The position numbers were made by a program, and so were the translations under genes. Shown one piece after another: positions 14,671 through 15,431 of a stretch of DNA of 64,000 nt. The stretch is from Tateyamaria sp. ANG-S1. Its GTDB lineage: Bacteria > Pseudomonadota > Alphaproteobacteria > Rhodobacterales > Rhodobacteraceae. Position 1 is the stretch's first letter. Each line of letters opens with the position of its first letter. The stretch covers positions 62,001-126,000 of the forward strand of contig NZ_JWLL01000006.1 in the NCBI RefSeq assembly GCF_000814025.1, in the 5' to 3' direction. Under the pieces are notes generated by a model. It ran no database searches. It was not told where the DNA came from and was given only the letters and a program-made list of their open reading frames with translations.

Positions 14671-14753
14671 AAAAAGAAAAAGCGGCGATCCCAGGGAGGA
14701 GGAGGGGATCGCCGCCGTCTTGATGCCCGCCGGTCAGGGAGGAGGAGGACCGG
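14671..14753 (-). ncRNA. Cuckoo/CcsR-type small RNA 3 (two CCUCCUCCC hairpins, terminal terminator)
   Basis: Two hairpins present the motif in the loop on the minus strand. The first has stem arms 14730-14735 and 14748-14753 (CCGGTC/GACCGG) and a 12-base loop. The second has a perfect 11-bp stem, 14682-14692 with 14705-14715, and the same loop. The second is followed by TTTTTCTTTTT (complement of 14671-14681) and therefore doubles as the Rho-independent terminator of the whole array. Confidence 0.85.
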
Positions 14754-14792
14754 ATCGGACACATCTGGTGCACCACTTGGTGCGGTATTCGC

Positions 14793-14875
14793 GCGGCGAC
14801 ATTCGGGAGGAGGTGAATGCCGCCGCTCTTGCAACATCGCGCCGGTCAGGGAGGAGGAGGACCGGGGTGCGATGT
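14793..14875 (-). ncRNA. Cuckoo/CcsR-type small RNA 2 (two CCUCCUCCC hairpins)
   Basis: The first hairpin spans 14834-14875 with two stacked stems (ACATCGC/GCGATGT outside, CCGGTC/GACCGG inside) and an AGGGAGGAGGAG loop (plus-strand reading). The second spans 14793-14826 (GCGGC..CATTC paired with GAATG..GCCGC) and also has the motif in the loop. Spacing between the two motifs is about 44 bases, as in the other two units. No T-run follows, so release would need processing. Confidence 0.82.
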
Positions 14876-14894
14876 ATCGCTGTGTTTTGTTTGT

Positions 14895-14968
14895 GCGGCG
14901 GCGCCAGGGAGGAGGAGGGCGCCGCCGCCAATTTCAGATGCCCTCAGGGAGGAGGAGAGGACGATCTG
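14895..14968 (-). ncRNA. Cuckoo/CcsR-type small RNA 1 (two CCUCCUCCC hairpins)
   Basis: It begins only 16 bases past the stop codon of the DUF1127 gene. The first hairpin (14935-14968) has an imperfect stem (CAGAT/ATCTG and CCTC/GAGG). The second (14895-14928) has a perfect 11-bp GC-rich stem. Both expose CCUCCUCCC in the loop on the minus-strand transcript. No terminator follows, which fits release by RNase processing from a joint transcript, as described for CcsR RNAs of R. sphaeroides. Confidence 0.83.
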
Positions 14969-14983
14969 ATCCTTGTGTTCGTG

Positions 14984-15214
14984 TTATGCGGCCAGCTCGT
15001 GTGCTGATTCCCATGCCACGCGCTTCAGTTCCGACCGGTGCAGGCCCAGATCGGCCAGTTCGCGGTTGGACAGGGCGCTGAGTTCGTTCAGCGTTGTGCG
15101 GTAGACGCGCCGTTGTGCGCGCCGGTCTGCGGCGGCTTCGAACATACGTGCTGCGGTGCCCAGGATGCGTTCAACTAGGTCGCTGCGCTGTGCTACGTCG
15201 TTGTAATAGGCCAT
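14984..15214 (-). CDS. ccaF1: DUF1127 protein, likely CcaF1 orthologue
   Basis: 76 residues, strongly basic, with the DUF1127 core TTLNELSALSNRELADLGL and a short C-terminal tail. In R. sphaeroides the 71-residue DUF1127 protein CcaF1 (RSP_6037) is an RNA-binding protein that affects sRNA maturation, and its gene is followed by the co-transcribed CcsR1-4 RNAs. The same arrangement is present here (three RNA units directly downstream). Start at 15214 is set by GAGG 9 bases upstream; the open frame extends to 15298 without a better start. The orthology is inferred from length, family and context. Confidence 0.85.
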   Translation of the reverse strand: MAYYNDVAQRSDLVERILGTAARMFEAAADRRAQRRVYRTTLNELSALSNRELADLGLHRSELKRVAWESAHELAA

Positions 15215-15246
15215 GTTTTTTGCCTCATGCTCATTTCGTTGATGGT

Positions 15247-15274
15247 TATATAGGCCCATGCTGCACCTGCACAA
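15247..15274 (-). promoter_or_regulatory. Probable promoter of the DUF1127-cuckoo RNA operon
   Basis: On the minus strand TTGTGC (15274-15269), 16 bases, then TATATA (15252-15247), with CC just before it. Transcription would start about 25 bases before the DUF1127 start codon. In R. sphaeroides this operon depends on the heat-shock sigma factors RpoHI/RpoHII; the sequence here does not settle which sigma factor is used. Confidence 0.5.
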
Positions 15275-15431
15275 TACATACCGAAACAATGCTGCCATGC
15301 AGCAATTGCATAGACCCTGAGTTGAAATCGGCGGCAGTGTGCACAGGAATGTGGCGTGTGGGCCTTGACCATCGGCGGGCCCTTGCCACTGGCGAAATAA
15401 CTGCCATCTCTTGCATCACAAAGCGGAGAGA

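Follow-up and report, generated by a model that had tools for sequence, protein, structure and literature searches.

In R. sphaeroides, the ccaF1-CcsR1-4 operon (RF02791) combines a DUF1127 gene with tandem two-hairpin RNAs that carry CCUCCUCCC loops, and it ends in an intrinsic terminator. Published work on this operon describes maturation of the RNAs by RNase E, binding to Hfq, induction by stress and an effect of CcaF1 (PMC8307010, PMC8625941), and ccaF1 is reported to be under the control of RpoHI/RpoHII (PMC10253847). Members of the cuckoo RNA family consist of 2-4 hairpins whose loops carry a conserved motif (PMC4504443). The loops of this RNA type, those of R. sphaeroides RS0680a included, have been described as anti-Shine-Dalgarno (PMC3927594), and action of the loops on Shine-Dalgarno sequences is the published view (PMC3927594, PMC10746234).

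Related elements have been described in rhizobia and Brucella. The ar14/NfeR1 RNA of Sinorhizobium (RF02344) carries CCUCCUCCC loops and is activated by LsrB via a TGCA-N6-GCAT site at -72 to -60 (PMC10746234). In Brucella, the regulator VtlR, whose binding motif is CAATGCAGCCATGCA, activates the sRNA AbcR2 and three DUF1127 proteins (PMC12595884). LsrB has been termed unique to the Rhizobiales and linked to trxB (PMC11975290), and VtlR/LsrB has elsewhere been placed in many Alphaproteobacteria (PMC7486931).

Here, we analyze a 64-kb stretch of DNA from Tateyamaria sp. ANG-S1 (the window), in which a DUF1127 gene is followed by an array of three two-hairpin units, compared with four in R. sphaeroides. 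We describe the array, its structure and conservation, a promoter box and its placement across relatives, and an LsrB-family protein encoded in the same genome. The array itself is a further member of a family already known; the new element is the proposed switching of the operon by an LsrB/VtlR-family activator, which we put forward from sequence comparison.

Organization of the array

Six copies of CCTCCTCCC lie on the minus strand within 262 bases (14694-14955), with none on the plus strand (Table 1). Six sites in the window compare with 0.52 expected, and none of 100 shuffles reached at least six. The start-to-start spacings of 40, 58, 44, 68, and 43 divide the motifs into three pairs, and all six are placed in predicted hairpin loops, giving three two-hairpin units between the DUF1127 gene and the terminator. 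An earlier note on this DNA had described six minus-strand hairpins with the motif in the loop, in three pairs with 40-44 bases between motifs and with a T-run at the last hairpin only. This description holds, with start distances of 40, 44, and 43 within the pairs and a T-run after B3. The note had placed A3 at 14730-14753; the fold of unit 3 widens it to the extent listed in Table 1. The claim of differing stems around a constant loop was right in part, but the lower stem of the second hairpins (B1-B3) is in each case of the GCGGCGGC / GCCGCCGC type, and 26 bases are identical between A2 and A3.

Table 1. Features of the operon and its upstream region, with positions numbered along the window.
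Feature	Position	Strand	Remarks
LsrB/VtlR-like upstream box	15287-15304	minus	TGCTGCATGGCAGCA (15304-15290) overlapping TGCATGGCAGCATTG (15301-15287)
Second half-site TTGTGCAGGTGCAGCA	15259-15274	minus	about 31 bp from the first; includes the TTG of a possible -35
Possible -10 CTATAT, with a C before it (CCTATAT)	15248-15253	minus	putative
DUF1127 gene (CcaF1-like), 76 aa	14984-15214	minus	PF06568, 46.4 bits, E 3.2e-12
Unit 1, hairpin A1	14935-14968	minus	loop motif 14947-14955
Unit 1, hairpin B1	14895-14928	minus	loop motif 14907-14915
Unit 2, hairpin A2	14834-14875	minus	loop motif 14849-14857
Unit 2, hairpin B2	14793-14826	minus	loop motif 14805-14813
Unit 3, hairpin A3	about 14723-14762	minus	loop motif 14737-14745; extent from the fold of unit 3
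Unit 3, hairpin B3	14681-14716	minus	loop motif 14694-14702; terminator stem
T-run 3' of B3	14671-14681	minus	probable intrinsic terminator, read directly from the sequence

The units fold with energies of -43.6, -43.4, and -43.1 kcal/mol (z of -5.5, -5.0, and -5.1; 0/200 shuffles for each), and the entire array reaches a z of -8.4, with none of 100 shuffles as good. Taken singly, five of the six hairpins fold better than all 200 shuffles; A3 does not go beyond them (z -1.4, 16/200 as good). The T-run terminator is absent from a consensus terminator scan, which admits loops of 3-8 only. In the genome as a whole, the single motif is not enriched: it has 25 sites (6 in the array, 19 elsewhere), fewer than the 33 of its reversed control. 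The four matches to the motif pair equal the number produced by the window's own spacings. A small additional hairpin, GCACCAAGTGGTGC, lies on the minus strand between units 2 and 3 (14770-14783).

Among the best 80 of 242 related stretches from named genomes, those closest to the DUF1127 protein come from Tateyamaria, with up to 90% identity. The gene has a weak GAGG as its own Shine-Dalgarno sequence and may thus escape its own RNAs. Upstream of it, on the opposite strand, is a frame for an Mrp-type ATPase, and downstream of the array, on the same strand, are a 182-aa frame with no Pfam match and a sigma-70-like protein.

Assignment to the CcsR/cuckoo family

At the Rfam gathering scores, the window yields a tRNA only and nothing at the array. 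In an E-value search, CcsR1 (RF02791) aligned over its full length (1-83/83) to all three units, with 46.5 bits (E 2.3e-10) for unit 1, 32.8 bits (E 2.6e-6) for unit 2, and 44.0 bits (E 1.3e-9) for unit 3. None of the three scores reaches the CcsR1 gathering threshold of 65.3 bits, so the units are not formal members of RF02791 and are filed under the wider cuckoo/CcsR type. The ar14 model (RF02344) gave 46.8 and 46.1 bits, short of its gathering score of 58.8, and these matches cross the unit borders.

A covariance model, R1, was built from 50 units of loci L043-L105, all outside Tateyamaria. These were taken from 98 non-redundant units, themselves from a set of 220 from which ambiguous spacings had been excluded. 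The structure of R1, obtained with RNAalifold, models hairpin B only because the register of hairpin A shifts between units, and hairpin A was for this reason examined by permutation instead. R1 matches unit 1 at 77.8 bits (E 1.2e-21), unit 3 at 68.5 bits (E 6.1e-19), and unit 2 at 49.9 bits (E 1.8e-13), and the next match in the window has 11.6 bits. Across the 50 units, the window not among them, hairpin B has double-sided changes at 8/8 modelled pairs, and 91.7% of cells pair. Its covariation score is 0.624, compared to 0.300 for shuffles (0/500) and a maximum of 0.224 when the structure is slid, while the bare count of pairs with double changes does not go beyond shuffles (73/500). For hairpin A, the 98 units in one fixed register pair at 0.672, compared to 0.478 when the 3' arms are re-dealt (0/1000 permutations). 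Together, the two analyses show that the stems vary with pairing retained while the loop is constant.

The covariance search therefore does not score these hairpins as chance. The CcsR/cuckoo identity proposed in the earlier note is borne out by the full-length CcsR1 alignment and by R1 E-values of 1e-21 to 2e-13, as is the ccaF1-CcsR layout, a DUF1127 gene and then the array, which recurs across DUF1127 loci of relatives. In the window, the CcsR-operon layout, with the gene before the array and a terminator after the last unit, is seen directly. Judged by sequence and predicted structure, the array belongs, as a new member, to the CcsR/cuckoo sRNAs, an anti-Shine-Dalgarno family.

Distribution and genomic context

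Two copies of CCTCCTCCC 20-50 bases apart occur in 107 of 149 Rhodobacteraceae genomes, where the reversed control gives at most 4 per genome and 0 in most. Among the best 80 of 242 stretches, 75 DUF1127 loci carry at least one exact motif on the strand of the gene, although in two of these (L055, L085) it lies upstream of the gene only. R1 recovers four of the five motif-less loci (L040, L041, L042, and L056) at 43.8-51.5 bits. L040, examined entire, has shortened CUCCUCCC / UCCUCCC loops; in the fifth, L057, the sequence stops about 228 bases beyond the gene. A sample of 30 motif-pair loci, one listed site each from 30 of the 107 genomes, has a DUF1127 frame upstream at 23, downstream at one (L111), and none at six, one of which (L112) resembles coding sequence. 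At least five T in eight bases follow the last hairpin at 76 of 104 loci with at least two motifs (L026-L135 and the window).

Other arrangements were also seen. In a Sulfitobacter MAG (L044) and in Sulfitobacter (L045-L047), the array is upstream of the DUF1127 gene, and one exact motif is still found after the gene. Plasmids of Haematobacter, Qingshengfaniella, and Salipiger (L229, L230, L231) carry free-standing two-hairpin cuckoo RNAs that score 70-75 bits with R1, with no gene listed under them and no box of the kind described below; they look like a second, plasmid-borne class of cuckoo RNA. In one genome (L126; G039:C16, C17, C62), several contigs carry near-identical cuckoo pairs, which suggests dispersed copies. 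In the Tateyamaria genome (L001 / L282, G000:C1:11517) and in G043 (L289), an Hsp20-type gene (assigned by eye) has one hairpin with a CTCCTCCTCCC-type loop after its stop codon. Such 3' UTR hairpins are sporadic, found at 2 of 30 Hsp20 loci, from 58 matching genomes of 61, the Tateyamaria genome included. Elsewhere in the same genome (L025, G000:C32:58057, at about 1480-1545), CCTCCTCCC stands at the apex of a long terminator-like hairpin that precedes a gene resembling, by eye, a nitrate-type ABC transporter binding protein.

It could be argued that the hairpins work in cis only, as terminators or stabilizers of the DUF1127 mRNA, and that tandem duplication alone accounts for the constant loop. 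The hairpins are directly 3' of a coding gene, the last one is the terminator, and neighbouring units are sometimes near-identical (A2/A3 in the window; G051). This reading is nevertheless very improbable: stems covary around fixed loops in 50 units from other genera, 13 arrays have no detected DUF1127 gene (ten of the 79 box sites below and the three plasmid copies), and CcsR and NfeR1 are published as trans-acting sRNAs.

A promoter box conserved with the operon

The region upstream of the DUF1127 gene contains a box that the earlier note overlooked. TGCTGCATGGCAGCA is a perfect inverted repeat, and the overlapping TGCATGGCAGCATTG is the reverse complement of the Brucella VtlR motif at 14/15 bases. 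The chance of one match in 600 bases, assuming uniform bases, is about 5e-5 with one mismatch to 1e-3 with two. A sigma-70 promoter scan of this region found no promoter. If transcription starts near 15241, the GCAT...T core would be at about -59 to -47; in S. meliloti, the LsrB site of PabcR1 is at -61 to -49 (PMC8844928). The strict LsrB consensus, GCAT-N3-TG-N3-T, is unmet in the window, where AG takes the place of TG, and the spacing is N5 rather than the N6 of the NfeR1 site, making the window site a variant. For this reason, we stop short of calling the operon a proven member of the LsrB/VtlR regulon and claim instead that it works like one. The box has a single exact copy in the genome. 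The upstream half recurs elsewhere in 12 one-mismatch copies (reversed control 0), 10 of them inside frames of at least 100 aa, and none of the 12 has an exact second half or TCCTCCC within 1200 bases.

The VtlR motif is found with at most three mismatches upstream of 89 of 95 DUF1127 loci that have a motif within 400 bases downstream (window included), and with at most four mismatches upstream of all 95. L075 was left out of this count, having an upstream stretch of less than 500 bases. With 200 shuffled motifs (at most three mismatches, one strand), the mean was 0.5 and the maximum 5 of 95, and a distant control stretch 900-1500 bases downstream contained the VtlR motif in 0/91. The loci are homologous, however, and 89/95 thus does not equal 95 independent matches for the VtlR identity. 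A VtlR-like site is also present at four of six DUF1127 loci without a motif within 400 bases.

Comparison of DUF1127-locus promoters gave the exact bipartite pattern GCATRGCNGCATTG-N8-16-TTGTGCA, which occurs at 79 sites in 77 of 148 Rhodobacteraceae genomes, with a reversed control of 0. We read all 79 sites (30 loci, 48 stretches, and the window), and every one precedes a cuckoo array and/or a DUF1127 gene: both at 62, an array without a detected DUF1127 frame at 10, a DUF1127 gene with one exact motif at three, and a DUF1127 gene with zero exact motifs at four, two of which (L202, L235) have UCCUCCC words downstream. The spacer is 12 bases at 32 sites and 13 bases at 47. TTGTGCA is followed by NNYGCAGCA in 77/79, the consensus T position is A or G in 77/79 and T in 2/79, and CYTA occurs within 35 bases after TTGTGCA in only 37/79. 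In a class-wide draw of 385 genomes, two had the exact pattern, both Rhodobacteraceae and one of them the Tateyamaria genome; outside the family it was found in 0/380.

The exact box occurs twice in two genomes, G048 and G094, where the parts of the operon are separate. In both, a lone two-hairpin unit followed by a T-run stands behind one box, and a DUF1127 gene with no motifs stands behind the other. We read this arrangement as an operon that has split with the box retained by both parts, although the same picture would result from the fusion of two boxed genes. Sulfitobacter L045 is similar, its array and DUF1127 gene each having their own box-like site. At seven sites where the array is not behind a DUF1127 gene, one of which (L112) looks coding, a site within three mismatches was found at L114 only. 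Motif pairs without an exact box occur in many genomes, such as G039, G041, and G086.

A candidate LsrB/VtlR-type regulator

Searching the Tateyamaria genome with a trxB-linked LysR protein of the LsrB type from alphaproteobacterium L165, one of 30 trxB loci examined, identified a LysR protein (G000:C29:257160-258023) with 48% identity and a score of 286 bits; the second best of the 31 matches in this genome scored 118 bits. Against 9HH1, A. tumefaciens LsrB (PMC11975290), the protein scores 241 bits, compared to 97.5 for the next chain, and 48 of 65 N-terminal residues are identical. On these comparisons, the genome clearly encodes a relative of LsrB/VtlR. Relatives at E 1e-45 or better are found in 145 of 148 genomes of the family (in pieces in G028 and G114), so the presence of an LsrB-type protein is not discriminating. 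In 17 genomes where the best match spans most of the Tateyamaria protein at no more than 68% identity, there is no motif pair and no exact box; these genomes are confounded by shared ancestry, and the Fisher p was accordingly given no weight.

The gene for this protein is not adjacent to trxB, whose neighbourhood contains no LysR gene and which adjoins an Lrp gene. The protein has one cysteine (190), and none at the positions of LsrB C144, C236, C244, and C273. With these cysteines missing, the thiol switch, a property of A. tumefaciens LsrB (PMC11975290), is not conserved. We propose that the LsrB-type protein may bind the box and control the operon.

The main competing explanation is that this is an ordinary CcsR/cuckoo operon under RpoHI/RpoHII alone, or that a factor other than the LsrB/VtlR relative binds the palindrome. 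An RpoHI/RpoHII promoter is reported at R. sphaeroides ccaF1 (PMC10253847), TTG and CCTATAT are plausibly spaced in the window, the strict LsrB consensus is one base off, and the LsrB cysteines are absent. We consider this explanation rather unlikely, as two half-sites conserved at 79 sites, one upstream of the -35 and one over it, exceed the needs of a sigma factor and the window motif is one base from the VtlR motif; moreover, Brucella VtlR activates DUF1127 genes (PMC12595884), and the CCUCCUCCC sRNAs of Sinorhizobium are controlled via an LsrB box (PMC10746234). The locus is probably an operon of the ccaF1 type whose CcsR/cuckoo array has three units and which is switched by an LsrB/VtlR-family activator.

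Proposed mechanism and targets

In the mechanism that we propose for the switched operon, a stress signal would activate the LsrB-type protein. This activator would bind the palindrome at about -60 to -46 and the half-site over the -35, positions predicted from the sequence, and might act with an RpoH-type polymerase, as in R. sphaeroides. A putative single transcript would run from about 15241 to about 14671 and encode the DUF1127 protein. By analogy with its R. sphaeroides homologue, RNase E would cleave the 3' part to yield three sRNAs, each with two hairpins and roughly 85-95 nt long, and CcaF1 would affect their maturation. The UCCUCCUCCCU-type loops would then pair with purine-rich Shine-Dalgarno sequences, silencing mRNAs under stress. 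For this species, we infer the binding of the regulator to the box, its signal, the start site, processing by RNase E, and blocking of Shine-Dalgarno sequences.

The full nine-base complement of the loop, GGGAGGAGG, is found before an ATG in three matches, two of which are the array's own opposite strand. With perfect nine-base targets nearly absent (one outside the array), targeting would use shorter cores such as GGAGGA. This word occurs before ATG 355 times, compared to 63 in the control; it is common there, and the count is not proof of targets.

Comparison with described systems

The operon is like ccaF1-CcsR1-4 in its DUF1127 gene, tandem RNAs, and terminator, and unlike it in the number of units and in the LsrB/VtlR-like box described here. 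Among the literature matches listed, with most of the subscription literature outside the search, we found no report of such a box at ccaF1 and no LsrB-cuckoo link in Rhodobacteraceae. Among 19 of these matches, PMC12501420 alone has both CcaF1/CcsR and LsrB/VtlR terms, and its sole mention of LsrB is a reference. With the cuckoo RNAs, the array has in common the loop motif, variable stems, and consecutive hairpins; while a cuckoo RNA has 2-4 hairpins, the box-linked arrays at the 79 sites contain 0 to 17 exact motifs, the high counts arising because several RNAs stand in tandem. The loops are the same as those of ar14/NfeR1, whose S. meliloti gene also has an LsrB box upstream, and the single free-standing two-hairpin unit of G048 and G094, with its box and T-run, resembles this RNA. 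In contrast, ar14 consists of three hairpins and its S. meliloti promoter is of the sigma-70 type, whereas in the window the RNA makes up the 3' part of what is probably an mRNA.

The resemblance to the VtlR/LsrB regulon of Brucella and Agrobacterium, with its AbcR sRNAs, extends to a LysR-type regulator, anti-Shine-Dalgarno sRNAs, small DUF1127 proteins, and a near-identical motif. The differences are that sites of the window type have A or G for the consensus T and comprise two half-sites, that a genome usually has the exact site only once, at a single operon, and that the regulator gene is away from trxB and its product is without the LsrB cysteines. On balance, we favour a circuit of ancient origin, common to Rhizobiales and Rhodobacteraceae, in which LsrB/VtlR would control anti-Shine-Dalgarno sRNAs together with a DUF1127 protein. 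In Rhodobacteraceae, the circuit would have narrowed until each genome has, in essence, a single full operator, located at the cuckoo/DUF1127 operon and kept by both parts when these are apart, and the LsrB-type protein would be a dedicated translation-silencing switch that responds to a signal other than the thiol switch.

Implications

The box may tie the array to a regulator so far studied mainly in rhizobia and their relatives. If this is true, it joins the CcaF1/CcsR stress RNAs of Rhodobacteraceae with the LsrB/VtlR regulon of rhizobia and Brucella, and a transcription factor would be named for the CcaF1/CcsR system. The exact operator, usually one per genome, is a sequence handle, and this handle opens the association of DUF1127 proteins with anti-Shine-Dalgarno RNAs to direct testing in marine bacteria.
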